Shown here piece after piece: positions 4,682 through 36,291 of a stretch of 64,000 bases of DNA. The position numbers were made by a program, and so were the translations under genes. Under the pieces are notes generated by a model. It did not search any database. It worked only from the letters and a program-made list of their open reading frames with translations, and was not told the DNA's origin. Each line of letters starts with the position of its first letter. Position 1 is the first letter of the stretch. This DNA is from Aquitalea aquatilis. Lineage in GTDB: Bacteria; Pseudomonadota; Gammaproteobacteria; Burkholderiales; Chromobacteriaceae. The stretch is from assembly GCF_005155025.1 (NCBI RefSeq), contig NZ_CP039731.1, forward strand, positions 3,534,001 through 3,598,000, given 5' to 3'.

Positions 4682-4762
4682 CAATTCGCCAGCCAGCTTG
4701 ATTGATGGCCAGCCTGCCAGCGCCTACCTTGCAGACATTCTCATCTGCGATATGGAGCACCC

Positions 4763-7281: not shown

Positions 7282-7303
7282 CAAGTAGAAGCAAGGAGCA
7301 ATC

Positions 7304-9284: not shown

Positions 9285-9346
9285 AACCAGCACAAATCCG
9301 GCGCAGTAAAGCCTTGTGGCCTGCCGTTTCTTTTCAGGAGTTTCCG

Positions 9347-10012
9347 ATGCTCAAGCCTTACCTGCCGCACGATCTGCTGTGGCTTGCCAGCCCTTCGGCC
9401 CTGGCCACCGACAGCGAGCTGCCCGCCTGGCTGCCACAGCATTGGCACCCCGGCCTGCCGGTGGTGGTGCGCCGCGCCAGCGCCAGGCCCGGCTGGATTG
9501 CGGTCGGGGTACGCGGCCCGCAGCGCTGGCAACGCTGCGCCTTGTGGGCGCGCAGCAAACAGCTAAGCCGTGTGCTGCGCCCGGAGCAAGTGGCGGCACA
9601 GCAAGGCTGGCGCCAGCATCCGCGCCTTGCCGCCCTGCCGGCACTGCAAGCCCTGCAGCGGTCACACGCAGCCTTGCTGGCCTGCGGCCTCGTCTGGGGC
9701 ATCACCGGTAGCGCCGGCTTTGAGCTGGCAAGCGGCCAGCCCGCCCTTGGCAGCGACAGCGATCTTGACTTGCTGCTGCGCTGCCCGCAGCCACCGGATC
9801 GTCCACGGTTACAGACACTGGTCGCTGCACTGGCACAGCTGCCTTGTCGCGTGGATATCCAGCTGCAAACCCCAGCCGGTGGCGTGGTGCTGGCCGAATG
9901 GCTGCGCGGTGGCCGGGTGCTGCTGAAAACCGCCACTGGCCCCTTGCTGCTGGATGAGCCGCTGGCCCCATGGCCCGGCAACCGGACCCAGCAGCTGGAG
10001 CAATGCCCATGA
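9347..10012 (+). CDS. mdcG: Phosphoribosyl-dephospho-CoA transferase
   Basis: A 221-residue nucleotidyltransferase-like protein. It transfers the phosphoribosyl-dephospho-CoA arm onto MdcC. The metal-binding motif GSDSDLDLLL (about residues 142-151) is the G-S-x4-D-x-D-like signature of this fold. The ATG at 9347 has CAGGAG seven bases upstream and gives the expected length; a start at 9263 would overlap mdcE and is rejected. Its stop overlaps the mdcH start (ATGA). Confidence 0.9.
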   Translation: MLKPYLPHDLLWLASPSALATDSELPAWLPQHWHPGLPVVVRRASARPGWIAVGVRGPQRWQRCALWARSKQLSRVLRPEQVAAQQGWRQHPRLAALPALQALQRSHAALLACGLVWGITGSAGFELASGQPALGSDSDLDLLLRCPQPPDRPRLQTLVAALAQLPCRVDIQLQTPAGGVVLAEWLRGGRVLLKTATGPLLLDEPLAPWPGNRTQQLEQCP

Positions 10013-10941
10013 GCGTACTGTTTACCTTTCCCGGCCAGGGCAGCCAGCGCCCCGGCATGCTGCAGCAGCTGCCGCAACACGCGGCCTGTCAGGCGGCACT
10101 GGCCGAGGCCGCATCTGTGCTGGGCAGCTCGCCGCTATTGCTGGATTCTGCCGCAGCGCTGCGCTCCACGGTGGCGGTACAGCTATGCCTGCTGATCGCT
10201 GGCGTGGCCTCGGCCCGCCTGCTGCAGCAGGAAGGCATCCGGCCGCAGATGGTCGCCGGCTTGTCGATTGGTGCCTTTGCCGCTGCCGTGGTGGCCGAAG
10301 CCCTGCCGCTGGCCGATGCCCTGCGCCTGGTGCGGCGGCGCGGCCAACTGATGGAACAGGCTTATCCGCAGGGCTATGGCATGTGTGCGGTAAGCGGCCT
10401 GGCCCAGCCCCAGCTGGCAAACCTGCTGGCCCAGCTACAGGCCGCCAGTCATCCGCTTTATCTGGCCAATATCAATGCCGAACGGCAACTGGTGGTGGCT
10501 GGCAGCGATGCCGGCCTGCAGCAGCTGGCCAGCCTGATCCAGACCGGGGGAGCCGGCCGCTGCCAGCGGCTGGACATCAGCGTGCCATCGCACTGCAGCC
10601 TGCTGGATGAAGCTGCCAGCGCGCTGCGCCAGGATTTTTCCCGCATCAGCCTGGCCGTTCCACGACTGGACTACCTCAGCGCCAGCTCCGCCCGCGTGCT
10701 GCGGCGGCCCGAGCAAATTGCCGATGATCTGGCCGGCAATATGGCGCGACTGGTGCGCTGGCACGACTGCAGCCGGCTGGCATATGAGCGCGGCGCACGG
10801 CTGGCGGTGGAGATGCTGCCCGGCAGCACCCTGAGCAAGCTGGTCGGCACGGTATTTGAAGATGGCGCGGCATTGGCCCTGTCCAGCACGCGGCTGGACA
10901 GCCTGCAAGCCCAGGCCAGCCGGTGGCAGGCGCAAGGCTAG
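10009..10941 (+). CDS. mdcH: Malonyl-CoA:MdcC malonyltransferase (epsilon subunit)
   Basis: A 310-residue FabD-like acyltransferase. MdcH charges MdcC with malonyl from malonyl-CoA, priming the decarboxylase. GQGSQRPGM near the N-terminus and GLSIG (nucleophile serine, GxSxG) around residue 83 are the malonyltransferase marks. The start at 10009 is chosen over ATG at 10003 because GGAG is only two bases from the latter. It closes the operon; a rho-independent terminator follows directly. Confidence 0.92.
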   Translation: MSVLFTFPGQGSQRPGMLQQLPQHAACQAALAEAASVLGSSPLLLDSAAALRSTVAVQLCLLIAGVASARLLQQEGIRPQMVAGLSIGAFAAAVVAEALPLADALRLVRRRGQLMEQAYPQGYGMCAVSGLAQPQLANLLAQLQAASHPLYLANINAERQLVVAGSDAGLQQLASLIQTGGAGRCQRLDISVPSHCSLLDEAASALRQDFSRISLAVPRLDYLSASSARVLRRPEQIADDLAGNMARLVRWHDCSRLAYERGARLAVEMLPGSTLSKLVGTVFEDGAALALSSTRLDSLQAQASRWQAQG

Positions 10942-14251: not shown

Positions 14252-14923
14252 ATGCACTACCAACTCGACACACTGGAACACGACAATCTGGGCAGCACGG
14301 TTTATCAGCTGCTGTGTGATGCGCTGATCAGCGGCCGGCTGCAGCCCGGTGCCCGGCTGAAAATACGCGAGCTGGCCGAGCAGCTGGGCACCAGCGTCAC
14401 CCCGGTGCGTGACGCCATCTTGCGGCTGGTGCAGGAGCAGGCACTGGCCATGCAGTCGCCGCGCGACATTCGCGTGCCCTACATGACGGTGGAGCGCTAT
14501 CTGGAAATACGTGCCATCCGCATCCGGCTGGAGGGCCTGGCGGCCGAAACCGCCGCCACCAAGGCACAGCCTGCCGACATCGCCCGGCTGGAGGACATCG
14601 TCGCGCGCAATGCCGTGGCCATGACCGCGCAGGACATTGCGCTGGGCTGCGCCCTGAACCAGCACTTCCATTTCGCGCTGGTGGAAATAGCCGGCCTGCC
14701 CTTCCTGCACGGCATCCTTTACCGTATCTGGTTGCAGATGGGGCCGCTGATCGCCGCCGTCTACCAGCAAGGCGGCAGCGCCATGCTGGACTACCACTAT
14801 CCGGTGCTGGAGGCGATGCGCCAGCGCGATGGCGCGGCGGCGGCGCTGGCCATTGGCGACGACATCCTCAGCGGCGGCCAAGCCATCCTGCTGCATCTGC
14901 AAACCCGCCAGAGCGCTGACTGA
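14252..14923 (+). CDS. GntR-family (FCD domain) transcription regulator
   Basis: A 223-residue regulator: N-terminal winged helix with LKIRELAEQLGTSVTPVRDAI (residues about 37-57), then an all-helical FCD ligand domain (from about 85; conserved NQHFHFAL metal/ligand region). The ATG at 14252 gives the usual length. It is transcribed divergently from the SDR-kinase-PLP enzyme operon, and the palindrome between them is its likely operator, so the regulator probably answers to the substrate or a product of that pathway (inference). Confidence 0.85.
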   Translation: MHYQLDTLEHDNLGSTVYQLLCDALISGRLQPGARLKIRELAEQLGTSVTPVRDAILRLVQEQALAMQSPRDIRVPYMTVERYLEIRAIRIRLEGLAAETAATKAQPADIARLEDIVARNAVAMTAQDIALGCALNQHFHFALVEIAGLPFLHGILYRIWLQMGPLIAAVYQQGGSAMLDYHYPVLEAMRQRDGAAAALAIGDDILSGGQAILLHLQTRQSAD

Positions 14924-15071
14924 CGGATTTCCGCACGACTGACACGACCACATCGGCGGCCAGCCGTACCACACCTTAAAAACACCTTTCATTTCAATGA
15001 CTTGAACGGACAATTTCAGGCACGATGTTTGCAATACACAGCTGCGTTCGTTCTTGCAGAAAGCTGCTGCC

Positions 15072-15515: not shown

Positions 15516-16457
15516 TCAGGCCATCAGGTAAATCAGCGCCGCCTCGCCAAACACACCAATCACCGTCCCCACCAGCACCGAGTGCGAGGCATGCAGGGCG
15601 TAGGTCTGGTTGCGCACGGCAAACATCGAGGCGGCAATCGCCGTCGGCACCGCCCCCACGATCAACGCCTGGCGGGCAAACTCGGCATCCACGCCAAACA
15701 GCAGGATACCCAGCAGCATCAGTGCCGGCTGCAGGAAATTCTTCATCGCCACATTGCCCACCACATGGCTGTTAAACGCCGGTTTTTCACCACAGAACAT
15801 CAGGCCCAGTGCCAGCAAGGACACCCCACCGGCCGCCTTGGCCAGCATGTCCACACTATCCTGCACCGCCGCCGGCAGGTGCAGATGATTGAAACTGAGC
15901 ACCACCCCCAGAATGGGCAGCCAGACAATCTGGTTGGACAGGGTCTTGACCATGCTCTGCTTCAGCATGGTCACCACCCCATCATCACTGCCCGACGCGG
16001 ACATCTCGCCACAGCGGCACAGCACGATGGTCAGCGGCAGGATGATGAAGCTGGTGATCAGGTTGCCGATCAGTACCGCAATAAAGCCCTGCGGCCCGCA
16101 CACCTGCTGCAGGATGGGCGCGCCAAAGTAGGCCATATCGGGAAAGGTGCAGACCAGCGCCTGGATGGCGCTGCTTTTCAGATCACTACGGTAGTAATAA
16201 CGCCCGGCCAGCAAGGCCAGGACGTAAGTGCCGACAAAGCCAAAGCTCAGGCACAGGATGAACGGCACATTCTGGATGCGCTCCGGCGGCGTTTTCAGCG
16301 CGCCGATAAACAGCGAACAAGGCAAGGCATAGCGCATCACCAGCGTGGCCAGCACACTCACATCGGCCTGACGGAAATAGCCGCGCTGCCCGCCAAACCA
16401 ACCCAACATCATCAACAGCACCACCGGCAGCAGTGCCGTGCTCATGGTTCCCAGCAT
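15516..16457 (-). CDS. AEC-family carboxylate transporter (MdcF/MleP-like)
   Basis: A 313-residue integral membrane protein with about ten hydrophobic segments in the two-repeat arrangement of auxin-efflux-carrier (AEC) proteins. Characterised members include MdcF (malonate) and MleP (malate). The start at 16457 has AAGGAG eight bases upstream; a longer reading to 16682 adds a non-membrane stretch with no ribosome site. A good sigma-54 promoter lies just upstream on this strand (16502-16517), and the gene is divergent from the NADH/fumarate-reductase-like operon. The substrate may be malonate, for which the mdc operon lacks a carrier, or a C4-dicarboxylate, which the sigma-54 context favours. 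I leave the symbol blank for this reason. Confidence 0.8.
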   Translation of the reverse strand: MLGTMSTALLPVVLLMMLGWFGGQRGYFRQADVSVLATLVMRYALPCSLFIGALKTPPERIQNVPFILCLSFGFVGTYVLALLAGRYYYRSDLKSSAIQALVCTFPDMAYFGAPILQQVCGPQGFIAVLIGNLITSFIILPLTIVLCRCGEMSASGSDDGVVTMLKQSMVKTLSNQIVWLPILGVVLSFNHLHLPAAVQDSVDMLAKAAGGVSLLALGLMFCGEKPAFNSHVVGNVAMKNFLQPALMLLGILLFGVDAEFARQALIVGAVPTAIAASMFAVRNQTYALHASHSVLVGTVIGVFGEAALIYLMA

Positions 16458-16501
16458 GTTATTGCTCCTTATCTCTGCAAAGTGTCTCTCACCGCTTGCA
16501 T

Positions 16502-16517
16502 AGCAAGGCGCATGCCA
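16502..16517 (-). promoter_or_regulatory. Sigma-54 promoter of the AEC transporter gene
   Basis: On the minus strand the sequence reads TGGCATGCGCCTTGCT, one mismatch from the TGGCACG-N4-TTGC consensus with correct GG/GC spacing. It ends 45 bp before the transporter start codon. Confidence 0.65.
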
Positions 16518-16611
16518 TCGCACAGCACTTCCAAACCATTGATTTAAATACACAAATAAACAACAAGCATCGCAACAGTACGGTTTCCCGCGAATCTGCC
16601 GCACCTGCCAC

Positions 16612-16623
16612 GCGGAAATCCGC
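16612..16623. promoter_or_regulatory. Activator binding-site candidate 1
   Basis: GCGGAAATCCGC: inverted arms GCGGA/TCCGC around AA. It lies 156 bp upstream of the plus-strand sigma-54 box and 95 bp upstream of the minus-strand one, which is normal enhancer distance. A degenerate reverse-oriented version occurs 33 bp to the left, at 16579-16590. Confidence 0.5.
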
Positions 16624-16691
16624 ACACGCCAGCCAAGCCCACCGTCCACAAGCCAGACAGGGTTTTCCGTCGATCCGGCCATGACAAAAAC

Positions 16692-16703
16692 ACGGAAATC
16701 CGA
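16692..16703. promoter_or_regulatory. Activator binding-site candidate 2
   Basis: ACGGAAATCCGA, sharing the CGGAAATCCG core with 16612-16623 and nearly the same as GCGGAAGTCCGT at 31193-31204 upstream of the malic enzyme promoter. Confidence 0.5.
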
Positions 16704-16778
16704 CGCCCGCCAGCCCCGCGCTCAGCAAAAAATTATCATTTCTCTTTTTTTTCAATAGCTTGCAAAACACCAATATGG

Positions 16779-16794
16779 TGGCACGCTCCTTGCA
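16779..16794 (+). promoter_or_regulatory. Sigma-54 promoter of the NADH/fumarate-reductase-like operon
   Basis: TGGCACGCTCCTTGCA matches the -24/-12 consensus TGGCACG-N4-TTGCA completely. It lies 78 bp before the ATG of the first gene. Confidence 0.8.
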
Positions 16795-16872
16795 AAGCCC
16801 AAGCCAAGGGCCAGGCCATCCGCCCGCCATCAGCACGGGCAGAGGGCCAGCACCACAGCAAAGGAAATCCCC

Positions 16873-17520
16873 ATGAGTGAAACCATCTGCATCAGCATTG
16901 ACGGCAAGGTGATGGCCGCACAGCCAGGCGACTCCATCCTGCAAACCCGGCTGCACGGCCCCGACGCCGTCACCGCCAATATCGGCTGCATGGGCCAGGG
17001 GGTGTGCGGCTCCTGTCGCTGCCTGGTCCGCAAGGCCGGCGAGCGCGAAACCGTCAGCCGGCTGGCCTGCGAAACCGTGGTGGAAGACGGCATGCAGGTC
17101 AGCTTCATCGACTACTACCTGCCCGACCACGTCCACCGCTATCGGCCGCATGATCTGCGCGACGGCTGGCAGGCCCTGCCGCAACTGCAGCAGACCTTTC
17201 CCGAAACCGCCCACTGCCGGCATTGCGGCGGTTGCGACCGCGCCTGTCCGCGTGGCATTCCGGTACAGCAAGGCATTGCCCTGGCCAGCCGTGGCGAGCT
17301 GCAAGCCGCCGCCGCGCTGTTCGATCCCTGCATCATGTGCAATCTGTGCACCCTGGCCTGCCCGGAAAACATCCGCCCCAATCATGTCGGGCTCTACCTG
17401 CGCCGCGCCCAGGCCATCCAGAACCTGCGCCCGGGCGATCTGCTGCGCCGGCTGGAACAGCAGGCACGCGGCCAGCTGGCCATCGACACCACGGCCCATC
17501 TTGCAAGGAGCGAGTCATGA
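16873..17520 (+). CDS. Iron-sulfur electron-transfer subunit (2Fe-2S + two 4Fe-4S)
   Basis: A 215-residue protein. An N-terminal plant/SdhB-type 2Fe-2S domain has Cys39, Cys44, Cys47 and Cys66 (CMGQGVCGSC... LAC). A C-terminal ferredoxin part has two CxxCxxCxxxCP clusters, at Cys115-125 and Cys153-163. This resembles SdhB/FrdB but with two full 4Fe-4S motifs. It overlaps the flavoprotein gene by ATGA, so the two are made together. Likely role: wire electrons from the NuoF-like subunit (third gene) to the FAD flavoprotein. A sigma-54 promoter precedes it. I know of no characterised complex with precisely this composition. Confidence 0.8.
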   Translation: MSETICISIDGKVMAAQPGDSILQTRLHGPDAVTANIGCMGQGVCGSCRCLVRKAGERETVSRLACETVVEDGMQVSFIDYYLPDHVHRYRPHDLRDGWQALPQLQQTFPETAHCRHCGGCDRACPRGIPVQQGIALASRGELQAAAALFDPCIMCNLCTLACPENIRPNHVGLYLRRAQAIQNLRPGDLLRRLEQQARGQLAIDTTAHLARSES

Positions 17521-19151
17521 GCACGGCCATTTCCTACCAGCAGGCCTGCCTTAACCGGGCCAGCCATGCCACACCGCCACTGCGGGCGGACGACCTGTCA
17601 CGCGCGGCCCTGCTGGCGCAATACCACCCCGACCACGCGGCCGATGCCAGCACGCTGCTGCAAATCGGCAGCAGCCGTGGCCAGCCCTGCCACCCGCTCC
17701 TGGCCGGACTGCTGCAAAGCAATGCGCTGATTGACGGCTTTGATCTGGCCGGTGCCGAACAACGCAGCACCGACGTGCTGGTGCTGGGCGGTGGCGGGGC
17801 CGGCGCAGCCGCCGCACTGACCGCTGCCCGTGGCGGGGCCGATGTCATGCTGGCCAGCAAGCTGCGGCTGGGCGACAGCAATACCGTGATGGCCGAAGGC
17901 GGCATTCAGGCCGCACTAGCCGCCAGCGACAGCCCTCAGCAACACTTTGACGACGCCATGCGCGGCGGCCACAACTGCGCCGATCCACAACTGCTGGCAC
18001 AGCTGGCGAGCGACGCACCCGGCGTCATCCGCTGGCTGATCGAACTGGGCATGCATTTTGATCTGGTCGATGCCAGCAGCGACGGCGGCAAGCTGCGCTA
18101 CAAGCAAGCCGGTGGCTGCAGCCAGCCACGCATTCTGTCCTACCGCGATTACACCGGCCTGGAAATGATGTGCGTGCTGCGCGAAACGGTGGAACTGGAG
18201 CCAGGCATCCAGCTGCTGAACCGCTGCCCGGTGGTGGAACTGCTGTCGCACGAAGACGGCAGCTGCGCCGGTGCCGTGCTGTACGACCTGGAATACCAGC
18301 GCTTCATCGTGGTGTCGGCCCGGCAAACCATCCTGGCCACTGGCGGCTGCGGCCGGCTGCATCTGCAGGGTTTCCCCACCTCCAATCACTACGGGGCCAC
18401 GGCCGACGGGCTGGTGCTGGCCTACCGCCTGGGCGCACAACTGCGTGACATGGATGCCTTCCAGTACCACCCCACCGGGGTGGCCTGGCCGCAGCGCCTG
18501 CGCGGCGGGCTGATCTCCGAAGCAGCCCGCTCGGCCGGTGCCATGCTGCTGAACGGTCTGGGTGAGCGCTTTGTCGACGAACTGGCCCCGCGTGATGTCG
18601 TGACCGCCGCCATCCTGCGCGAATGCGCCGCCGGCCGTGGCATCGTGCGCGACGGCCAACAAGGCGTGTTTCTCGACCTGCGCCGCCTGTGCGGCCCAGA
18701 CCTGCCCGCGCTGGCCAGCCAGCTGCCGGCACTGCAACACCTGGCCGACAAATGCGGTATCGACCCCACACGCGAACCCATGCTGGTCTACCCCACCCTG
18801 CACTACCAGAACGGCGGCGTGGTGATCGACAGCCAGGGCCAGAGCAGCGTGCCCGGCCTGCTGTGCGCCGGCGAAATCACCGGTGGCATTCATGGCCGCA
18901 ACCGGCTGATGGGCAATGCCCTGCTCGACATCCTCGCCTTTGGCCGCCGTGCCGGACGGCAGGCGGCGCGCCAGGCCCAGGCCGCCCGCAACAAATCATC
19001 GCTGCCGCCCCTGCGCGGCGGTATCGAACACGTCTATCGCTGGCAGCGCCAGCTGGCACTGGCCGGGCTGGACGCCAGCCAGCAAGCCCCGCTGCTGTAT
19101 CCGGGCCAGGCCAGGCTGACACTGCACCGCCCCGCCAGCGCGCGCGCATAA
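17517..19151 (+). CDS. Fumarate-reductase-family flavoprotein, non-covalent FAD type
   Basis: A 544-residue FrdA/SdhA-family protein. The FAD dinucleotide motif GGGGAG is at residues 91-96, after an unusual 85-residue N-terminal extension. Active-site segments FQYHPTGV, LISEAARSAGA and GRNRLMGNALLD are kept. The position of the covalent FAD histidine (SHT in SdhA) reads SNT here (Asn122), so FAD should be bound non-covalently, as in L-aspartate oxidase or soluble fumarate reductases. With the flanking Fe-S and NuoF-like genes the predicted enzyme is an NADH-dependent reductase of fumarate or a related unsaturated acid. The reverse reaction or another enoate substrate cannot be excluded. No membrane anchor gene is present, so it is probably cytoplasmic. 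Confidence 0.8.
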   Translation: MSTAISYQQACLNRASHATPPLRADDLSRAALLAQYHPDHAADASTLLQIGSSRGQPCHPLLAGLLQSNALIDGFDLAGAEQRSTDVLVLGGGGAGAAAALTAARGGADVMLASKLRLGDSNTVMAEGGIQAALAASDSPQQHFDDAMRGGHNCADPQLLAQLASDAPGVIRWLIELGMHFDLVDASSDGGKLRYKQAGGCSQPRILSYRDYTGLEMMCVLRETVELEPGIQLLNRCPVVELLSHEDGSCAGAVLYDLEYQRFIVVSARQTILATGGCGRLHLQGFPTSNHYGATADGLVLAYRLGAQLRDMDAFQYHPTGVAWPQRLRGGLISEAARSAGAMLLNGLGERFVDELAPRDVVTAAILRECAAGRGIVRDGQQGVFLDLRRLCGPDLPALASQLPALQHLADKCGIDPTREPMLVYPTLHYQNGGVVIDSQGQSSVPGLLCAGEITGGIHGRNRLMGNALLDILAFGRRAGRQAARQAQAARNKSSLPPLRGGIEHVYRWQRQLALAGLDASQQAPLLYPGQARLTLHRPASARA

Positions 19152-19163
19152 GAGAACACAATC

Positions 19164-20414
19164 ATGGAAAAACTCAATCAGGTATTGCTCAACCCGTCCG
19201 TGCAGGTCGGCCCCGATCTGGCCGCCTGGCTGCAACAAGGCGGCGGGCTGGGGCTGCAGGCCGCCTTGCAGGCCCCCACCGCCATCATCCGCTGCATTGC
19301 CGATGCCGACCTGCGCGGCATGGGCGGGGCCGGCTTTCCGGCCTGGCGCAAATGGGAAGCCACCGCCAATGCCGTGGGCGATTGCAAATACGTGGTGTGC
19401 AATGGCAATGAAGACGAACCCGGTACCTTCAAGGACCGCACCCTGCTCAGCGCATCGCCGCACCAGGTGATAGAAGGTGCGCTGATCGCCGCGTTGGCCG
19501 TACGCGCCCGCTGCCTCATCTTCTACCTCAACCCGCACCAGGGCCGCAGCCTGCACACCATGCAGCAGGCCGTCAGCCAGTGGCAGGACAGCCCCTGGCC
19601 GGAAAAGCTGGCTGCCGCCATGGGTCATGCACTGGAAATCAAGGTCGTCGCCAGCTCTGGCCGCTATATCGGCGGAGAAGAAACCGCCGTGGTGGCCTCG
19701 CTGGAAGCCGGCTTTCCTTTCCCGCGCAAAAAGCCGCCCTTCCCGGCCGAGCAAGGCATCAACTGCCAGCCCACCCTGATCAACAATGTGGAAACCCTGG
19801 CCAATGTCAGCCACATCCTGCGCCATGGTGCCGGCTGGTACCGCGCACTGGGCGTGGGCAAGGCCTGCGGCACCAAGCTGTACTCGCTGTCCGGCGATGT
19901 GCTGCGCCCCGGCCTGTACGAACTGCCCATGGGTACCAGCCTGCAGCAGCTGGTTTTTGATTACGGCGGCGGCATGCTGCAGGGCAAAGCCTTCAAGGCA
20001 GTATTTACCGGCGGTCCGTCCAACACCCTGCTCACCGCGCGCGATCTGGACGTGGCACTGGATTTCGACTCGGTCTGGCTGCGCCATTCGCGGCTGGGCA
20101 CCGGTGCCATGATCGTCATCTCCGAAGGCAGCAGCATCATCCGCAAGGTGGCCGAATACATCGACTTCTTCGCCAAGGGCTCCTGCGGCCAGTGCCCATC
20201 GTGCAAATGCGGCACCTTCCAGCTGGCCCGCCTGCTGGACCGGGTGGATGGCGGCCGCCACAGCCCGGCCGACCTGGATGCGCTGCAGCACCTGTGCCAG
20301 ATCCTGCCTGGCAGCGGCCGCTGCGGCCTGATCGACGGCGCGGTCACCGTGGTGAAAAGCTCGCTGCACACCTTTCCACAGGAATACGGCCTGCCCGCGC
20401 AGCCACAGGCCTGA
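19164..20414 (+). CDS. NuoF-like NADH-binding FMN/4Fe-4S subunit
   Basis: A 416-residue protein like the 51-kDa subunit of complex I (NuoF) and the diaphorase part of HoxF. FMN/NADH-binding segments RGMGGAGFPAWRKW (about 50-63) and NEDEPGTFKDR are present. The 4Fe-4S ligands are in SCGQCPSCKCG near residue 338, with a further Cys in GSGRCGL. It lies 12 bp after the flavoprotein gene. Its presence makes NADH the probable electron donor of the complex. There are no other nuo genes here, so this is not complex I. Confidence 0.8.
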   Translation: MEKLNQVLLNPSVQVGPDLAAWLQQGGGLGLQAALQAPTAIIRCIADADLRGMGGAGFPAWRKWEATANAVGDCKYVVCNGNEDEPGTFKDRTLLSASPHQVIEGALIAALAVRARCLIFYLNPHQGRSLHTMQQAVSQWQDSPWPEKLAAAMGHALEIKVVASSGRYIGGEETAVVASLEAGFPFPRKKPPFPAEQGINCQPTLINNVETLANVSHILRHGAGWYRALGVGKACGTKLYSLSGDVLRPGLYELPMGTSLQQLVFDYGGGMLQGKAFKAVFTGGPSNTLLTARDLDVALDFDSVWLRHSRLGTGAMIVISEGSSIIRKVAEYIDFFAKGSCGQCPSCKCGTFQLARLLDRVDGGRHSPADLDALQHLCQILPGSGRCGLIDGAVTVVKSSLHTFPQEYGLPAQPQA

Positions 20415-21409: not shown

Positions 21410-22702
21410 TCAAATCACTGGGATTACCAGCCCGGCCTGATGGATCATTGCATCAAGTAATTTCAATATCTTAGAAACATCGTAACTACTGCTTCGCAAC
21501 AGGTCGTCAGGTTGATCGTAGAAATGTTTTGAATAGGATTCTTTGAAATCCAACACACCATGCCACGCATCGATGTCTTTTTTGAAATTGCTCCACGTGA
21601 CCTGAGGGGCTGGATATTGATCCAAACTTAGGTCGAGATAGCATTCAATCGCGGCGGCTCGACCATTGATATCAGAAACGCTAACGCCCTCCGGACCGCG
21701 GGTGACGAATTCCCTAAATTCCTCAAGATCGGGTAAGAGCATCGCTCGCATGTTTGCAGGTAGTTTCAGTTTTTCAAGCTTGCGAAAGGCATCAACGCCC
21801 TCCGCGTCGTTGTCGAAAACGAATAAGACCTGGTTGAGAAGGTCAATTCGTAAAAGCCCTTCTGCGAATTTAACGAGATTGCCGGTTCCCCAGAAATGAT
21901 GGCGTTCATCGACATCGACGAAATTGAAAAAGTCTGCCACATCCGGATGGAGGATATCGAGCGACCGACGAATGATGCGTGCGTCAGATGCGCCCTCGGT
22001 CGCGATCAGAATTTTTTGCTTTTGCCGCACCCCCGGCTGGAATGCCTCACGTTTAACCCAACCGGCATGGACAATGGGGCCAAACTCCCACGTGACCTCA
22101 ACTTCAGTATTTGCTGAATTCAGAGCAAAGATACGAAGCATCGACTCAGCACTCAGAATGCAAACTCTTGCGGAAAGGAAGCTAGCTTCGGACCAATAAA
22201 AATCAGAATCTTCAGTTCTGGGAATCCGCTCAAATATTTCGATCTCAGCGGCAAACCGCCCCTGTGAAAGCGTGTCTCGATCCGGTGTTTCGAACTCGAC
22301 ATAATTACTTTTCAGATCGCTTAGAGGATAGCGGCAAACTAAATTGCAAAATTCTTCAAACGTCAGATATTTGTCTTTCTTCTCTTCTGGCTCGCCATAG
22401 CTATCCATATAGACCGCTTCTGCGACCATCATTTCATATTCGGCGCGTGCGGCTTCAAGAGTGAAGCCGAGTATCTCAAGACGCGGCAAGATGCGAGAAA
22501 GCGTTCTTGCAAAAAGTTCCTCAGCTTCGGCCAACTCCCCCTTCTCTTCGGGATGTTCTGCGTAATATTCGTAATCTATTGAGTCCGTCTTGCGGCGGAA
22601 GAGATCACCTTCCTGGAACAAGAACCCGTAATCTATCCCCATGAAGTTCTTGGAATACGATAGAGACACATTACCAATGCAGAGTTCTATGGAAGTTCCC
22701 AT
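21410..22702 (-). CDS. HEPN/Toprim-associated domain protein, probable defence gene
   Basis: A 430-residue protein recognisable as the HEPN/Toprim N-terminal-domain family. The first about 60 residues have the family look (MGTSIELCIGNVSLSYSKN). A C-terminal Toprim-like domain follows, with the acidic pair: Glu in LIATEGASDARII (about residue 233) and DND in LFVFDNDAEGV (about 296). Toprim domains of this type act as nucleases or nucleotide-transfer domains in OLD-like and other anti-phage proteins; a defence role here is an inference. It is alone, in a stretch of clearly lower GC with AT-rich flanks, suggesting recent acquisition. AAGG lies nine bases before the ATG. No partner gene is next to it. 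Confidence 0.7.
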   Translation of the reverse strand: MGTSIELCIGNVSLSYSKNFMGIDYGFLFQEGDLFRRKTDSIDYEYYAEHPEEKGELAEAEELFARTLSRILPRLEILGFTLEAARAEYEMMVAEAVYMDSYGEPEEKKDKYLTFEEFCNLVCRYPLSDLKSNYVEFETPDRDTLSQGRFAAEIEIFERIPRTEDSDFYWSEASFLSARVCILSAESMLRIFALNSANTEVEVTWEFGPIVHAGWVKREAFQPGVRQKQKILIATEGASDARIIRRSLDILHPDVADFFNFVDVDERHHFWGTGNLVKFAEGLLRIDLLNQVLFVFDNDAEGVDAFRKLEKLKLPANMRAMLLPDLEEFREFVTRGPEGVSVSDINGRAAAIECYLDLSLDQYPAPQVTWSNFKKDIDAWHGVLDFKESYSKHFYDQPDDLLRSSSYDVSKILKLLDAMIHQAGLVIPVI

Positions 22703-24104: not shown

Positions 24105-25424
24105 TTACTTTTCTTCCAGATCGTATTTGCGGATCTTGTCGAATAGCGTGGTCTTGGCGATTTTCAGCACTTCGGCGGTTTTGGAGACATTGCCGCCCTG
24201 CTTGCGCAGTTCTTCGGCAATCATGCCCTTTTCGAAGGATTCCACTGCCGTGTGCAGGGTGAGCTGGGTGTCGGCGGCAGCGGTGCCTGGCACCATTTTC
24301 AGGTCCAGCACGAAGCGGTCGGCCTGGTTGCGCAGTTCGCGTACATTGCCCGGCCAGTGGTAGGCCATCAGGTCGCGCACCACCTCTGCGGTGATGGCCG
24401 GTGCCGGGCGGTTCATGCGCAGGGCGGACTGGCTGACGAAGTAGTCGAACAGCAGCGGGATATCCTCGCGCCGGGCACGTAGCGGTGGCAGGTCCAGCGT
24501 GACCACGTTCAGGCGGAAGTACAGGTCGGCGCGGAATTTGTCCTCATCGGCCAGTTTGGACAGATCGGCCTTGGTGGCGGCAATCACGCGAAAATCCACC
24601 GGGATCAGCCGGTTGGAGCCCAGCCGTTCGATCACCCGCTCCTGCAGCACGCGCAACAGCTTGATCTGCATCGGCATGGTCATGCTTTCGATTTCGTCCA
24701 GAAACAGCGTGCCGTGCTGGGCGTATTCGATCTTGCCAATGCGCTGCTTGCTGGCCCCGGAAAACGCGCCGGCTTCGTGGCCGAACATTTCGCTGTCAAA
24801 CAGGGTTTCCGGCAGGCCGCCGCAGTTTAGCGCCACAAAGGGGCCGGTGCGGCCGGAGAGGTCGTGCAGGCAGCGCGCCAGCAGCTCCTTGCCGGCACCG
24901 GTTTCGCCATTGATCAGGATGTCGGTGGGGGTAGCCGCCACGCCCTGCACCAGCCGGCGCAGTTCGGCCATGACGCCGGAGTTGCCGATCAGCCGGCTTT
25001 CCAGGCCGCCAAATGCCGCCAGTTGGCGGCGCAGCTGGCGGACTTCCAGTGCCAGCCGGCGTTTTTCCATGGCGCGCTGCACCACCGACACCAGCACCTG
25101 TGGCAGGAAGGGTTTCTGGATGAAGTCGTAAGCGCCGTCGCGCATGGCCTGTACCGCCATGGCGATGTCGCCGTGGCCGGTGATGAGGATGACCGGCAGG
25201 TCGGGGTCGTCGGCCAGCAGTTCCTGCATGAAGGCCAGTCCGTCCATGCCGGGCAGGCGGATGTCGCTGACAATGATGCCGGCAAAATCACGGCCGATGG
25301 CGCGGCGCGCCTTTTCCACCGAGTCGAAGCCCTGCGCCGGGATGCCATCCAGCCCCAGTGCCTGCACATAGCCCAGCTGGACATCCTGGTCGTCCTCGAT
25401 CACCAGTACCTGAAGATTGCTCAT
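24105..25424 (-). CDS. dctD: Sigma-54-dependent response regulator, DctD type
   Basis: A 439-residue NtrC-family activator: receiver domain (1-120, phospho-acceptor Asp54 in IVSDIRLPG), AAA+ domain (about 145-375; Walker A GETGAGKE) and a C-terminal Fis-type HTH (about 400-437). The sigma-54 contact loop reads GAFSGA rather than GAFTGA. It follows the kinase gene by 3 bp. Family knowledge: DctB/DctD respond to C4-dicarboxylates and activate sigma-54 promoters. Two sigma-54 promoters upstream of an AEC carrier and a redox operon, and one upstream of malic enzyme, all with CGGAA(A/G)TCCG elements, are its probable targets (inference). AGGAG precedes the ATG. Confidence 0.88.
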   Translation of the reverse strand: MSNLQVLVIEDDQDVQLGYVQALGLDGIPAQGFDSVEKARRAIGRDFAGIIVSDIRLPGMDGLAFMQELLADDPDLPVILITGHGDIAMAVQAMRDGAYDFIQKPFLPQVLVSVVQRAMEKRRLALEVRQLRRQLAAFGGLESRLIGNSGVMAELRRLVQGVAATPTDILINGETGAGKELLARCLHDLSGRTGPFVALNCGGLPETLFDSEMFGHEAGAFSGASKQRIGKIEYAQHGTLFLDEIESMTMPMQIKLLRVLQERVIERLGSNRLIPVDFRVIAATKADLSKLADEDKFRADLYFRLNVVTLDLPPLRARREDIPLLFDYFVSQSALRMNRPAPAITAEVVRDLMAYHWPGNVRELRNQADRFVLDLKMVPGTAAADTQLTLHTAVESFEKGMIAEELRKQGGNVSKTAEVLKIAKTTLFDKIRKYDLEEK

Positions 25425-25427: not shown

Positions 25428-27251
25428 TTACTCCTGCCTGTTTTGTCTGAGCGTGATGGTGAATACCGCTCCGCCATCCGGGTGATTGTCGGCGGACAAT
25501 ACGCCGCCATAGGCCTTGATGATGTCCGAGGACAACGCCAGGCCCAGCCCCAGCCCGCTGGTTTTCTTGGTGGTAAAGAAGGGTTCGAAAATATGCTGTC
25601 TGACCTGTTCCGACAGGCCGCTGCCGTTGTCACGCACCTGAATGCGCACGATGTCGTCCTGCCGCTGCCAGCTGATGGCGATCAGCGGGTCGGCCACTTC
25701 GTGCAGCGCATCAATGGCATTGCTGACCAGATTCACCAGCACCTGCTCCAGCCGCACCGCCTCGCACAGCACCACGATGTCTTCCGGCTGGGCTGGCAGC
25801 TCCAGCCGGATCAGGGTTTTCTTCAGGCGGTGATTGAGCAGGAACAGCGCATTGTCCACGGCCTGTGCCACCGCGACGGATTCGCGCTCGCCACTGGGGC
25901 GGCGGGCAAAGGATTTGAGCTGTTCGGTGAGCGCGCCCAGCCGTGCCACGATGTCGGTAATACGTTCCAGATTAGCCCGCGCGGTGGCCAGGTCGTTGAT
26001 TTCCAGAAAGCGCACGGTATTGGCCGATAGCGCCGACAAGGCAGCCAGCGGCTGGTTGATCTCGTGGGCGATGCCGGTGGATAGCTGGCCGATCACCGCT
26101 AGGTTTTCGGTGCGGATCAGCTCGTTCTGGAAGTTCTCCACCTGGCGCGCGGCCTGGATGCGTTCTTCGATTTCCATTTTCAGGCTGGCATTGGCCTGTT
26201 TCAGCTCGCTGCTGCGCTGCTCCACCTGCTCTTCCAGCTGGTCATGTGCGCGCTGCAGGGCACGGCGGGCCTCGGCCTGGGTCTTGATGCCCATGCGCCA
26301 CAGCCGTACCGAGTGCAAGAGCAGGCAGGCAAAGCCCACCATCACCGCCACGGCCAGTGCCCGGGTCAGCGCCAGACTGTGCATTTCGTGGGTATCAATC
26401 ACCATGGTCAGCGTCATGCCGCTGACCGGAATGGTCTGATTGATGGCCAGATATTCGTGCCGAGTGCGGCCCTGCCCCATCTGCACCAGCATGGCCTGGC
26501 TATTAAGCACGCTTTTGCGCTGCCAGATGGGCGGCTTGATGATCTGCTTGTTGTACTGCTGGGCTTTTTCCAGGGCCAGCCTGGCGTCAAAGCTGAGCGG
26601 CACCGTGGCATGGTATTTCCACTCCGGCACCGATGACAGCACCACCACGCCGTTGGAATCCGACACCAGCAAGGGCTCTACAATATTGCCCCACATGTGC
26701 TCCAGCTGTTCCAGCCCGATCTTGATGGCCACCACGCCCAGCCGCTCGCCCCCCTGGTAGATGCCGGTGGCCAGATAAAAGCCGGTGGCGTTGCCGGTGG
26801 TACCCACGGCGTAAAAGGTGGTGATGCGGTTGGCCGCTGCCTGCTGGAAATACGGGCGATAGGCGATGTTGCGCCCGACAAAACTGTCTTTTTGCTGCCA
26901 GTTGCTGGAGGCAATCACCTTGCCCTGCTTGTCCATCAGATAGGCCTGCAAGGAGCCGGCCCCCTGATTGAGCCGCAGCAGGTAGTCATTGGCACGGGCC
27001 AGCTGTTGCGCGTCGGCCGGCTGCAGCAGCGCTTCGCGCAGGGTGTCGTTGTAGGACGCCGCCAGCGGCAGCAGGCCGTATTTGTCGACCTCGTGCTCCA
27101 GAAAGCCGGCATTGCGCGCCAGCCGCCGTGCGGACTCCTGCTGCCGTTGCTGTAGCAGCTGCTGCCAGCTGATGCTGTACACCGCATACGCGGCCAGCAG
27201 CGACAGCAACATGGAAAACAGCAGGTAAAGATAAAAACGGGTTCGCTTCAT
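25428..27251 (-). CDS. dctB: C4-dicarboxylate sensor histidine kinase, DctB type
   Basis: A 607-residue membrane kinase. TM1 is at about 6-28 and TM2 at about 293-315, enclosing a periplasmic double-PAS (dCache-like) sensor domain as in DctB. A coiled coil (about 325-375) leads to the H-box GIAHEINQPLAALS, and then the N, G1 (DNGSGL) and G2 (GLGLGLALS) boxes of the ATPase domain. The ligand is probably a C4-dicarboxylate by family. Its operon partner is the DctD-like regulator 3 bp downstream. Neighbouring AspT-like carrier and malic enzyme genes on the same strand support a dicarboxylate role. A terminator separates it from aspT upstream, so it should have its own promoter. Confidence 0.88.
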   Translation of the reverse strand: MKRTRFYLYLLFSMLLSLLAAYAVYSISWQQLLQQRQQESARRLARNAGFLEHEVDKYGLLPLAASYNDTLREALLQPADAQQLARANDYLLRLNQGAGSLQAYLMDKQGKVIASSNWQQKDSFVGRNIAYRPYFQQAAANRITTFYAVGTTGNATGFYLATGIYQGGERLGVVAIKIGLEQLEHMWGNIVEPLLVSDSNGVVVLSSVPEWKYHATVPLSFDARLALEKAQQYNKQIIKPPIWQRKSVLNSQAMLVQMGQGRTRHEYLAINQTIPVSGMTLTMVIDTHEMHSLALTRALAVAVMVGFACLLLHSVRLWRMGIKTQAEARRALQRAHDQLEEQVEQRSSELKQANASLKMEIEERIQAARQVENFQNELIRTENLAVIGQLSTGIAHEINQPLAALSALSANTVRFLEINDLATARANLERITDIVARLGALTEQLKSFARRPSGERESVAVAQAVDNALFLLNHRLKKTLIRLELPAQPEDIVVLCEAVRLEQVLVNLVSNAIDALHEVADPLIAISWQRQDDIVRIQVRDNGSGLSEQVRQHIFEPFFTTKKTSGLGLGLALSSDIIKAYGGVLSADNHPDGGAVFTITLRQNRQE

Positions 27252-27441: not shown

Positions 27442-29124
27442 CTAGAACACGTTGACCAGCACGATGGTGAACACAGCCATCACCAGTCGCGACACGGCAT
27501 ACCCTACGGTATAGCCCAGTGCCGGTACCTTGCTCTGGGCGGCGTCCTGCAATGCGCCCAGCGCGGCGGTGGTGGAACGGGCGCCGGCGCAGGCTCCCAG
27601 CAGGATGCCAGGGTGGAACTTGAACACGAAGCGACCCAGCAGCAGGCCGACAATCAGCGGCACCATGGTGACCACGGCTCCGGCAAACAGCAGGGTCAGG
27701 CCGTATTGTTGCAGGCCGGAAATGAAGCCCGGTGCGGCATTCAGGCCGATGACCGCGATAAAGCCGTTCAGGCCGACATTATTGAACACCCACAGCGCCG
27801 GGCCGGGGATCTTGCCGAAAGTACGCATGGAGGCACGCAGGTAGCCGCAGACAATACCGGCCACGATGGAGCCAACCGAAGTGCCGAAACTGAGCGGAAT
27901 CCCGGCCACATGCACGGTGATGGCACCCAGAATGCTGCCAGCCACGATGCCGAAGCCCATGAAGGCCATGTCGGAGTTTTCCAGCGGACGGTCGGCATAG
28001 CCCAGTTGCTTGGCCACGACGGCCACGTCCTGCTTGGCACCCAGAATGGTCAGCACGTCGCCGCGCTGTACCACTACATCCTGCCCCATCGGCATGTCCA
28101 GATCGCCACGACTGAAGCGGGTCAGGAACAGGCCACGGCCCGGTTTGCCGAACAGTTCGGTCGTGATGTCGCCCAGCGTCTTGCCGGCGTATTTGCGACT
28201 GGTCACTACCAGGTCGAGCAGCTCGGTGGAGAAGTCCAGCAGCGGCACGTCTTTCACTTCCTTGCCGAAATGGTGCTGGTATTTCAGCAGCGCGGTCAGC
28301 GTGCCGGAAATGGCCACCACATCATTGCGCTGGATGCGGGTACTGCCTTCGCAATCGACAATCTTGGCACCCACGGCCTGACGTACGCGGCGGACGAAGA
28401 TTTCGTGATTGAACATGGCTTCCACTTCGGAAACCGTCTTGTCGAACAGATCAACATTATTCAGCTGGAAAGCACGGGCGGAAAATTCGCGGTAAGCCGT
28501 GCTGCCCACGGTATGGCCGCTGCCGTTTTCCTTTTCGTAGGTCTTGCACTCTTCCACCAGATTGAAGCCCAGCACTTTCGGTGCGAAAGAAGCCAGAAAC
28601 CAGGCCGAACCAGCAGTACCGAAGGGATAGGTCACGGCATAGGCCACCGGCATCAGCGCCATGGCCACTTTCACGCCACCCGGCATCTGGCTGGCCTGAT
28701 TGAGCAGGTCGGTTGCCACGCCCAGTACGGTGGAATTGGTATAGCCACCGGACAGCAGGCCGGCAGTCAGCGCGGCATCATAGTGCAGCATCTTGCCCAG
28801 CAAGATGGCGGTGAACAGGCCGGAGGCACACACCAGCACGGTAAAGAACACCTGCGAGATACCGTCGCTCTTGAGTGCGCGGATGAATTGCGGCCCCACG
28901 GCATAGCCGACGGCAAACAGGAACATGGCAAAGAAGGTGGATTGCAGCACAGCCGGAATCACCAGATGCACCTGGCCAATCAAGAGGCCGGCCAGCAAGG
29001 TACTGGTGACCACCCCCAGATTGAACTTGCCCATATTGAGGTTACCCACCCAGAAACCGACGGCGATGGTCAGATAGATCGCAATCTCCGGGTATTTCTG
29101 CAGGGTATGAATGATGTAGTCCAT
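27442..29124 (-). CDS. aspT: AspT/YidE-family transporter
   Basis: A 560-residue membrane protein: about five N-terminal TM segments, a central cytoplasmic part with two RCK_C/TrkA-C domains (about 205-375), and five or more C-terminal TM segments. This is the architecture of the aspartate:alanine exchanger AspT and the YbjL/YidE group. The ATG at 29124 has AAAGGTG upstream and gives a length close to AspT (543); a reading from 29199 adds 25 unsupported residues. It lies downstream of malic enzyme, probably on its transcript, so malate, aspartate or succinate are plausible substrates. The repeat element at 29253-29349 lies in the 228-bp gap. Confidence 0.82.
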   Translation of the reverse strand: MDYIIHTLQKYPEIAIYLTIAVGFWVGNLNMGKFNLGVVTSTLLAGLLIGQVHLVIPAVLQSTFFAMFLFAVGYAVGPQFIRALKSDGISQVFFTVLVCASGLFTAILLGKMLHYDAALTAGLLSGGYTNSTVLGVATDLLNQASQMPGGVKVAMALMPVAYAVTYPFGTAGSAWFLASFAPKVLGFNLVEECKTYEKENGSGHTVGSTAYREFSARAFQLNNVDLFDKTVSEVEAMFNHEIFVRRVRQAVGAKIVDCEGSTRIQRNDVVAISGTLTALLKYQHHFGKEVKDVPLLDFSTELLDLVVTSRKYAGKTLGDITTELFGKPGRGLFLTRFSRGDLDMPMGQDVVVQRGDVLTILGAKQDVAVVAKQLGYADRPLENSDMAFMGFGIVAGSILGAITVHVAGIPLSFGTSVGSIVAGIVCGYLRASMRTFGKIPGPALWVFNNVGLNGFIAVIGLNAAPGFISGLQQYGLTLLFAGAVVTMVPLIVGLLLGRFVFKFHPGILLGACAGARSTTAALGALQDAAQSKVPALGYTVGYAVSRLVMAVFTIVLVNVF

Positions 29125-29252
29125 GATAGACACCTTTGTATTGTCGGCCACCACCAGCCGGTTAGCCGACCCGGCGGTGGCATCAGGCGCTTGTGGCACC
29201 TGTCATTTGTTCATGCACCGCCCGTCTGAGCGGTGCAATCTTCCATCAAGAA

Positions 29253-29352: not shown

Positions 29353-31011
29353 TCAGTACTGCGGCTTGTACAGCTGAGCCTCAAGCCAGGCGCGGATATC
29401 ACGCGGACGCTCTACCTGGGCCAGACCGGCATCGAACATGTACTCGGCAATACGGGCGGCCGTGGTCACTTCGGTTTCCAGAATCTGCTCCTGACTGGGG
29501 AACAGCATGGCCTTGGCGCGCTGGGTCAGCGTGACCTGGTCGGCAGTGGCGTGGGCGGCCACGATGAAGCATTCGTCGTTCAGGCGGGTCGGGCGGCAGG
29601 CATAGGTCGCCAGGCCGATGGCCGGGTAGATGTAGAAGTTGTTGGCCTGGCCCGGACGGTAGGTCTTGCCTTCGTATTCGAAGTCGGGGAACTGCACGCC
29701 AGCGGCAAACAGTGCCTTGCCCTTGGACCAGGTGTAGGCTTCCTCGGCGCTGCACTCGGCCTTGTGGGTCGGGTTGGACAGGGCAAAGATGATGGGCTGC
29801 TCGTTCAGCTTGCTCATCAGCTCGATCACTTCACGAGTGAAGGCACGCGCCTTGGTGCTCACGCCAATCAATACCGTCGGCTTGAACTCTTCGATGGCCT
29901 TGAGGAAATCCTTGCACGGCTTGGCCGGGCGGGCATACAGCTTCTGGGTTTCGGACAGGTCGGTACGCGAATGCTCGATCAGGCCGTTGATGTCGAACAG
30001 GGCAACCTGCTTGCGTGCTTCGGCTTCGCTCAGGCCCAGGGTTTGCAGCTCGGCGCAGAACAGCTTGGCAATGCCCAGGCCAGCAGAACCGGCACCCAGG
30101 AACATCACACGCTGGTCGGTCAGCTTGCCGCCAGTAATGTTCATGCCGGCAGCGATACCTGCCAGTGCCACACTGGCCGTGCCCTGGATGTCATCGTTGT
30201 AGCAGAGGATCTTGTCTTTGTAGCGATCCAGCATGCGGATGGCGTCGGTGCCCTTCCAGTCTTCAAAATGCACGCAGCAATTGGGGAAGACTTCCTGCAC
30301 GGCCTGAATGAATTCTTCGGTCAGTTCGTCCAGCTCGGCTTCGGAAACCGGGGCTTCGCGGGTGCCCATATAGAAGGGGTCGGCGCGCAGGGTTTCATTG
30401 GTGGTGCCGATATCAAACAGCACCGGCAGCAGGCCGGCCGGCGGTACGGCGGCGCAAGCGGTGTACAGCTGCAGCTTGCCAATCGGGATGCCCATGCCAT
30501 TGGCACCGATATCGCCCAGACCCAGAATGCGGCCACCGGTGGACACACAGATGAAGCGCACGTCTTTTTCCGGCCAGTTGCGCAGCACTTCGGCAATGCG
30601 GCCCTTCATGTAGCGGGTGATATACATGCCACGGGCGCGGCGGTAGTTGTTGCCGAAGGTTTCGCAGGCATCAGCCACGGTCGGATCGTACAGCACCGGG
30701 ATGAAGCGTTTCGGGTCGGACATCACCGTCTTGTAGAACACGGTTTCGTTACGGTCTTCCAGGCCGATCAGGTAGGTGTAGCGTTCCAGATCGTCCGCTT
30801 TTTCGTCCAGGTGGGCCATGACGCGCTCTACCTGACGGTCCAGGTTTTCCACTGCATGCGGCAGCAGGCCTTCCAGACCCAGCTGACGGCGCTCTTCCAC
30901 GCTATAGGCCGTGCCCTTGTTCAGCTTGGGTTCGTGCAACAGCGGCATGCCGCCGTGTTGGCCGTTGGCGCTCAGCTTGTCATTCTTGACGGAAGTGTTC
31001 TTTACAGTCAT
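29353..31011 (-). CDS. maeA: NAD-dependent malic enzyme
   Basis: A 552-residue malic enzyme of the large (MaeA/SfcA) type that oxidatively decarboxylates malate to pyruvate. Recognisable segments are the catalytic YITRYMKGR region, FEDWKGTDAIRML, YNDDIQGTASVALAG, the dinucleotide fold FLGAGSAGLGIA and ALSNPTHKAECSAEEAY. GGAG precedes the ATG. A consensus sigma-54 promoter lies 60 bp upstream, which is unusual for malic enzyme and ties it to the DctD-like regulator encoded 4 kb away. The gene is probably co-transcribed with aspT. Confidence 0.93.
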   Translation of the reverse strand: MTVKNTSVKNDKLSANGQHGGMPLLHEPKLNKGTAYSVEERRQLGLEGLLPHAVENLDRQVERVMAHLDEKADDLERYTYLIGLEDRNETVFYKTVMSDPKRFIPVLYDPTVADACETFGNNYRRARGMYITRYMKGRIAEVLRNWPEKDVRFICVSTGGRILGLGDIGANGMGIPIGKLQLYTACAAVPPAGLLPVLFDIGTTNETLRADPFYMGTREAPVSEAELDELTEEFIQAVQEVFPNCCVHFEDWKGTDAIRMLDRYKDKILCYNDDIQGTASVALAGIAAGMNITGGKLTDQRVMFLGAGSAGLGIAKLFCAELQTLGLSEAEARKQVALFDINGLIEHSRTDLSETQKLYARPAKPCKDFLKAIEEFKPTVLIGVSTKARAFTREVIELMSKLNEQPIIFALSNPTHKAECSAEEAYTWSKGKALFAAGVQFPDFEYEGKTYRPGQANNFYIYPAIGLATYACRPTRLNDECFIVAAHATADQVTLTQRAKAMLFPSQEQILETEVTTAARIAEYMFDAGLAQVERPRDIRAWLEAQLYKPQY

Positions 31012-31070: not shown

Positions 31071-31086
31071 CGCAACTAGCGTGCCA
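31071..31086 (-). promoter_or_regulatory. Sigma-54 promoter of maeA
   Basis: The minus strand reads TGGCACGCTAGTTGCG, matching the -24 (TGGCACG) and -12 (TTGC) elements with exact spacing. Confidence 0.8.
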
Positions 31087-31192
31087 GCCTTTTTGTCCTG
31101 TAAAAAATTCTTAAGTTATTGATTTTTATGGATTTTTATTTTCACAAAAAACCACGCCGACGTCAGGCCGTACTTTGCCCCGCACGGCGGGT

Positions 31193-31204
31193 GCGGAAGT
31201 CCGT
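31193..31204. promoter_or_regulatory. Activator binding-site candidate upstream of maeA
   Basis: GCGGAAGTCCGT lies about 107 bp upstream of the maeA sigma-54 promoter. The core CGGAAGTCCG differs by one base from CGGAAATCCG at 16613-16622 and 16693-16702. Confidence 0.5.
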
Positions 31205-31378
31205 ACTTTGTGAGTGGGCTTTGTGCGGGTAGGAAAAATGCTGGTTGGCGGGGCGGAGGAAGGGAAAGAGAGCTTGGCTCGCCATACCCGGCATTGGGGT
31301 AAGACCCGCGAAGTTAAGCCCGACATCGCAACACCGCTGTCGCTTAGCAACTATCGAACTGTTTAAACATCAGCTGTC

Positions 31379-36142: not shown

Positions 36143-36170
36143 GTTGTTCTCCTGTGAGGGTTGGGAATCA

Positions 36171-36284: not shown

Positions 36285-36291
36285 AAGCTTT

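Follow-up and report, generated by a model that had tools for sequence, protein, structure and literature searches.

A window of 64,000 nucleotides from Aquitalea aquatilis (NZ_CP039731.1), to which all coordinates below refer, contains a tight three-gene operon that probably encodes a cytoplasmic NADH:fumarate reductase; in Aquitalea, the enzyme would serve redox-balanced use of C4-dicarboxylates. The operon encodes an iron-sulfur (Fe-S) electron-transfer subunit of 215 amino acids (16873..17520, +), a FrdA-type flavoprotein of 544 amino acids that would bind flavin adenine dinucleotide (FAD) and hold the proposed fumarate site (17517..19151, +), and a NuoF-like subunit of 416 amino acids, predicted to bind NADH, flavin mononucleotide (FMN) and a 4Fe-4S cluster and proposed as the point of NADH entry (19164..20414, +). 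The first two genes overlap by 4 bp. Open reading frame (ORF) calls and Kyte-Doolittle profiles revealed no membrane-anchor gene within the operon; the Fe-S and flavoprotein subunits have no membrane span and the NuoF-like subunit has one borderline segment (1.83).

Divergent from the operon is a gene for a carrier of the AEC family (15516..16457, -), whose PF03547 domain scores 125.9 bits against a cut-off of 25.7. We took its start to be the ATG at 16457, which lies behind a GGAG-type ribosome-binding site; the longest ORF extends to 16682. A first-pass annotation, made from the letters of this DNA, had described the tight operon without a membrane anchor, its one 2Fe-2S and two 4Fe-4S motifs, the divergent carrier, a perfect and a near-perfect sigma-54 box, and repeated sites between the boxes. 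All of these elements were borne out by the coordinates, domain matches, hydropathy profiles and comparisons given here.

Subunits and predicted cofactors

The flavoprotein contains an FAD_binding_2 domain (Pfam), and its predicted structure has E. coli FrdA (1kf6) as its closest fold (E 8.4e-30, template modelling score 0.67). The model (predicted local distance difference test, pLDDT, 80.0; predicted template modelling score, pTM, 0.84) was read for fold only because loops 122-129, 277-292 and 458-467 fall below a pLDDT of 50. The catalytic residues H318, E335, R338, R359, H429 and R463 align with their equivalents in E. coli FrdA, SdhA and NadB and are conserved in 80 or 81 of the 81 family rows. 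Asn122 occupies the position of the covalent-FAD histidine in all 81 rows, so that the residue that anchors FAD is missing; noncovalent FAD fits a reductase. The N-terminus is extended by about 80 amino acids (gene part 17517-17760); this stretch is conserved, is covered by no Pfam match and retains His-Pro-Asp at 37-39 and Cys58 in 81/81 rows. In a tree of 43 sequences, the family forms a clade separate from SDH/FRD and NadB (Shimodaira-Hasegawa-like support 0.998). At E <= 0.001 the genome holds only two further relatives, which group with SdhA and NadB, and the flavoprotein is 87-98% identical to named Aquitalea records.

The Fe-S subunit carries one set of 2Fe-2S cysteines (C39, C45, C48 and C66) and two 4Fe-4S sets (C115/118/121/125 and C153/156/159/163), and each of the 12 recurs in 72 or 73 of the 73 aligned sequences. 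Its structural model was poor (pLDDT 67.4, pTM 0.45) and was not used. Complex1_51K, SLBB and NADH_4Fe-4S domains or motifs were found by Pfam in the NuoF-like subunit, and the four cysteines of its N3-type 4Fe-4S cluster are present in all 67 aligned sequences; against the equivalog model TIGR01959 it scores 368.5 bits, with a cut-off of 558.65. Pfam and NCBIfam searches found no NuoE-like partner among the three operon genes or in the next gene, which is of YbaK type; the rest of the genome was not searched.

With these cofactors, NADH would reduce the FMN of the NuoF-like subunit, and electrons would leave by its 4Fe-4S cluster and travel along the three clusters of the small subunit (one 2Fe-2S, two 4Fe-4S) to noncovalent FAD, where the FrdA-type subunit would turn fumarate into succinate. 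Of the possible routes through the predicted cofactors, the one from NADH via FMN and the Fe-S chain to FAD and then fumarate is the simplest. Because the fumarate/succinate couple is far more positive than NAD+/NADH, the reaction should go towards succinate, either as a redox sink or as a step of a reductive tricarboxylic acid (TCA) cycle.

Sigma-54 promoters and a DctB/DctD-type pair

Two sigma-54 boxes lie between the carrier and the operon. The -24/-12 box that faces the operon (TGGCACGCTCCTTGCA, 16779..16794, +) matches the pattern exactly, as no other site in the window does, and the box that faces the carrier (TGGCATGCGCCTTGCT, 16502..16517, -) has one mismatch. Ten genomes were sampled in the genus, and eight carry the operon (the window's own and seven relatives). 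The operon-facing box shows no mismatch in any of the eight, and the carrier-facing box has none in six and one in two. These eight genomes are closely related, yet the sequence flanking the boxes is visibly divergent. If as many as two mismatches are tolerated, the pattern occurs 69 times in the window against 64.7 expected, which is chance level, and the evidence therefore rests on conservation of the boxes. Genome-wide there are 16 exact boxes, compared with 2 for the pattern read backwards, and rpoN was found in the genome.

The repeated element CGGAAATCCG occurs exactly at 16613, 16693 (16693..16702) and 14924 of the window. With at most one mismatch it is found at 13 places against 4.1 expected, a number reached in 0 of 100 shuffles. 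The genome holds 31 copies, and among the 30 examined only those at 16613 and 16693 have an exact sigma-54 box within 500 bp. The copy at 16613 is included in an upstream site at 16609..16626 that resembles a DctD site, and a palindromic site at 16577..16594 is a weaker DctD-like match with five mismatches; both emerged from genus comparison and consensus scanning. Matches to FNR boxes upstream of the operon were few, each with one mismatch, and followed no consistent pattern. The third exact copy (14923-15033 region) directly follows a GntR-family gene; a one-mismatch sigma-54-like box stands 94 bp further, with no recognised gene behind it.

Four kilobases downstream of the reductase operon are genes for a DctD-type sigma-54 response regulator, the proposed activator (24105..25424, -; Pfam/NCBIfam and ortholog search), and a DctB-type sensor kinase (25428..27251, -), whose sensor domain matches the solved DctB chains 2zbb (3.3e-29) and 3by9 (3.7e-33). 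They are followed by genes for an AspT-family (aspartate/alanine) antiporter (27442..29199, -; 549.9 bits, cut-off 546.95; start codon uncertain) and a malic enzyme (oxaloacetate-decarboxylating malate dehydrogenase; 29353..31011, -; 676.2 bits, cut-off 326). Upstream of the malic enzyme gene, a sigma-54 box (31071..31086, -) stands at -75 in 8/8 genomes, exact in six and with one mismatch in two, the window included, and a DctD-like palindrome (31190..31207) stands at -192 or -193 in 8/8. An excerpt of PMC11077940 gives the published R. meliloti DctD site as TGTGCGgaaatCCGCACA. The sites at 16609 and 31190 each deviate from this consensus at three specified positions; the sites keep their place across the genus, but taken alone such matches stand out little from chance. 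Reductase, malic enzyme and DctD ortholog co-occur in an identical set of eight of the ten genus genomes, and in several of these they lie on separate contigs or tens to hundreds of kilobases apart.

From these comparisons we infer complex formation, the NADH donor, the fumarate substrate, the DctD activator, the carrier substrates and the malate route. The DctB/DctD-type pair would sense C4-dicarboxylates and, through sigma-54 promoters, switch on the malic enzyme/AspT operon together with the reductase and the AEC carrier; the carriers would bring substrate in and take product out. Malic enzyme would yield NADH from malate and the reductase would consume it on fumarate, giving redox-balanced use of C4 acids; if malic enzyme is co-regulated with the reductase, part of the malate could be oxidised and part reduced, with NADH balanced between the two branches. 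The first-pass annotation had proposed a soluble reductase of fumarate or another enoate, linked to NADH and induced with its carrier. Residues, fold, the NuoF-like subunit, gene neighbours and promoters favour this proposal, which had overlooked the DctB/DctD pair and the malic enzyme/AspT operon.

Other genes of the window include an anaerobic ribonucleotide reductase with its activating protein (35251-38049), a sign of capacity for anaerobic growth, and a protein with a HEPN/Toprim N-terminal domain (21410-22702; PF18871, 181 bits) that is possibly defence-related.

The trio in other genomes

A gene-neighbourhood survey, suggested in the first-pass annotation, was run on the best 80 of 187 confirmed flavoprotein relatives in genome contigs. 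All three genes occur in order and on the same strand in 66 of the 80 loci, and the set is widespread rather than local, recurring in further soil bacteria and sulfur oxidisers. Gaps between neighbours are approximate because ORF starts were set mechanically. In a taxonomic-class sample, 15 of 369 genomes (own included) match the flavoprotein at E <= 1e-120, 12 of them at an identity of at least 53% and three at 44-46%; among the relatives' genomes, a match at E <= 1e-80 is found in 8 of 61 (own included), each of them from Aquitalea.

Carrier genes often adjoin the trio. The AEC carrier does so in 5/80 loci, all from Aquitalea. Carriers of a DASS cluster, which was built by BLAST and had one member run against models, occur in 24/80 loci and adjoin the trio in 22; 13 of these are divergent, in the slot that AEC takes here, and nine lie just downstream. 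In Propionivibrio dicarboxylicus (L015, 74% identity), the trio adjoins a LysR gene and no carrier is found among the six neighbours scanned.

In seven loci, tubeworm-symbiont metagenome-assembled genomes included, a gene for the alpha chain of a 2-oxoacid:acceptor oxidoreductase follows the trio on the same strand, at a distance of about 50-200 bp in L066, L067, L069 and L084 and about 0.9 kb in L074, L078 and L088; the beta gene was found in five of the seven. Comparison with models was confined to the L088 pair, whose alpha chain scored above the subfamily cut-off (491.3 vs 482.75) and whose beta chain scored below (231.9 vs 261.9), so that the label KorAB (2-oxoglutarate enzyme) is provisional there. 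Locus L074 is that of the Escarpia laminata symbiont, where citrate synthase is also nearby. For this symbiont, an excerpt of PMC6315080 describes a locus of dimeric korAB that adjoins further TCA genes. In sulfur oxidisers the trio also has genes with ferredoxin domains as neighbours. Outside Aquitalea, the trio perhaps serves the reductive TCA cycle.

A more distant form, 44% identical to the flavoprotein, is found in tubeworm symbionts (L185-L187). Where the FAD-anchoring His would stand it carries Asn, it aligns along much of the N-terminal extension, and in the 43-sequence tree the 44%-identical relatives of L185-L187 sit next to the flavoprotein clade (support 0.957). In L187 its gene adjoins 4Fe-4S and CCG-domain genes, not NuoF; this is perhaps a sister form with another donor.

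Two further arrangements were seen. In L061, L064, L065, L071 and L087, a pair of Fe-S and flavoprotein genes without NuoF adjoins an aconitase gene, and four of these loci also have an NAD(P) transhydrogenase beta gene. In L068, L080, L082 and L083 (Thioploca/Halobeggiatoa), proteins of 392 and 123 amino acids precede the flavoprotein; one example of each was scanned and gave no Pfam match.

Alternatives and known systems

Several observations weigh against a NADH:fumarate reductase under DctD control. Within the enzyme, two active-site positions depart from E. coli FrdA, SdhA and NadB (Ser334 for their Thr, Asn432 for their Met or Cys), and the flavoprotein scores under the cut-off in all 25 NCBIfam models listed, of 48 matched. 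In the survey, NuoF is missing from 14 of the 80 loci: four sequences end too early, and ten have at least 2 kb behind the flavoprotein. Neither an Fe-S nor a NuoF partner was seen in L068, L082, L083 and L085, despite room on both sides. These loci imply that the donor varies or that the partners are encoded elsewhere. Each of the three tubeworm-symbiont genomes examined holds six to seven flavoprotein relatives, so the trio is not their sole candidate fumarate reductase, and many trio hosts (Paraburkholderia, Cupriavidus and Variovorax) are mainly aerobic.

The regulatory evidence has its own weak points. Matches to the DctD consensus occur at six places in the window, where random sequence gave a mean of 3.0 and a maximum of six. 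An extended palindrome with up to three mismatches returned one site, that of malic enzyme; its backwards control also gave one site, and the search did not recover the window's own reductase sites. Co-occurrence of reductase, malic enzyme and DctD depends on one informative absence, in the complete genome G009, G008 being only 61% complete; moreover, the genome has a DctD paralogue with 59% identity. In an upstream scan of 71 of the 80 loci (seven without an Fe-S gene and two with short upstream sequence were left out), a sigma-54 box with up to two mismatches was found outside the genus in 2/66 regions, compared with 145/3497 background windows (4.1%). Among the loci scanned, sigma-54 control of the reductase is seen only in Aquitalea.

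Whether the AEC carrier belongs to the reductase can be questioned from within the window. A malonate decarboxylase cluster (mdcA, B, beta, gamma, G and H with a likely LysR-type regulator) lies at 3656-10941, no transporter was found among its examined genes, and AEC proteins include malonate carriers. We nevertheless think it unlikely that the carrier serves this cluster: about 4.6 kb with other genes separates it from the mdc genes, and it shares with the reductase a divergent regulatory region conserved in 8/8 genomes.

The substrate may be another unsaturated di- or tricarboxylate, such as mesaconate, itaconate or aconitate, imported by the adjoining carrier and reduced by a soluble NADH-linked enzyme. 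Adjacent carrier genes, the substitutions at Asn432 and Ser334 and the aconitase gene beside five NuoF-less relatives speak for this, whereas the retained His/Glu/Arg catalytic set of C4-dicarboxylate enzymes, the 2-oxoacid:acceptor oxidoreductase neighbourhood, which suits fumarate, and the DctB-type sensor speak against it. The ten NuoF-less loci with room, the equal count in the palindrome control and the two active-site differences lower our confidence in NADH:fumarate reduction and raise that in another substrate, which we still rate as rather improbable.

An electron-bifurcating complex, in which oxidation of NADH by fumarate is coupled to ferredoxin reduction, is suggested by the top PDB matches of the NuoF-like subunit, HydB/NfnB-type chains of 584-626 amino acids that are presumably bifurcating, and by the 2-oxoacid:acceptor oxidoreductase and ferredoxin-domain genes beside the trio in sulfur oxidisers. 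The 416 residues, however, align only to the 51K core of those chains and lack their extra length and cluster domains, no NuoE-like gene was found in the trio or the next gene, and the subunit reads NEDEPGTFKDR where five aligned solved chains read DEGDPGAFMDR or DEGDPGAFMNR; its Asn82, invariant in 67/67 sequences, is Asp in all five. We therefore rejected a HydABC/NfnABC-type identity and regard bifurcation as very unlikely. We would hardly expect the trio to be a general, unnamed Proteobacterial NADH:fumarate reductase module that reduces fumarate for the reductive TCA cycle of those sulfur oxidisers in which its genes adjoin a 2-oxoacid:acceptor oxidoreductase, in its boldest form with bifurcation to ferredoxin for that oxidoreductase.

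An L-aspartate oxidase or an ordinary complex II set, named by resemblance, deserves almost no credence: the superfamily is shared and the NadB model gives 292.9 bits (cut-off 452.75), but the flavoprotein clade is separate, SdhA and NadB types are encoded elsewhere in the genome, the operon has no anchor gene and the covalent-FAD His is missing. NadB was rejected on that score and clade, and SDH/FRD on its model TIGR01812 (284.8 bits, cut-off 567.3), the missing FAD-His and the missing anchor gene, the FAD_binding_2 domain and catalytic set being present. TfrAB was rejected too; TfrA is the best NCBIfam model, at 322.9 bits with a cut-off of 718, and a CCG domain, a trait of the TfrAB partner subunit, has no match in the three operon proteins at E <= 0.001. 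Firm placement of the flavoprotein in a characterised family of different function, which the first-pass annotation had named as fatal to its proposal, did not result from these model scores.

If NADH:fumarate reductase is the right assignment, the trio would be a compact, membrane-free enzyme with a range from Cupriavidus to tubeworm symbionts, and in some sulfur oxidisers it could account for the reduction of fumarate. In Aquitalea it would tie C4-dicarboxylate sensing to a redox-balancing route from malate to succinate. Such a complex, small and soluble, would lend itself in practice to NADH-driven succinate production.

The predicted enzyme shares with E. coli FrdABCD the FrdA fold and catalytic residues of the flavoprotein; it differs in having neither an anchor gene, where E. 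coli has the membrane subunits FrdCD, nor the FAD-His. The E. coli enzyme has covalent FAD, a quinol donor and a 3Fe-4S cluster. With NuoF (51 kDa) of complex I and diaphorases, it has in common the 51K domain, SLBB and 4Fe-4S motifs, and departs from them in the lack of a NuoE-type partner in the operon and in Asn82. Rhizobium DctB/DctD-sigma-54 control of dctA, as far as the excerpt of PMC11077940 describes it, resembles the proposed control in the type of sensor and regulator, the sigma-54 box and a similar palindrome; the proposed targets here are instead a soluble reductase, an AEC carrier and a malic enzyme/AspT operon. In tubeworm symbionts, a putative TfrAB fumarate reductase is assigned to the reverse TCA cycle in an excerpt of PMC6315080. 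The 44% form of L187 differs from the trio in having 4Fe-4S and CCG-domain neighbours instead of NuoF.

No description of a three-gene fumarate reductase of flavoprotein, Fe-S and NuoF-like subunits was found among the listed matches of the open-access literature searched. The earlier statement that no described system with this exact set was known stands to that extent; the kind of enzyme, soluble and NADH-dependent, is known. One of the reductive TCA cycle has reportedly been described from Hydrogenobacter thermophilus (Miura, 2008, by its title), and is said to have five subunits from scattered genes. By that title, and not by sequence, the two are alike in being soluble, linked to NADH and directed from fumarate to succinate; they differ in that the Hydrogenobacter enzyme would have five subunits and scattered genes, compared with three genes in one operon here. 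Because a soluble NADH-dependent fumarate reductase is known from Hydrogenobacter, the proposed type of activity is not new, and the three-subunit set would be a variant of it.

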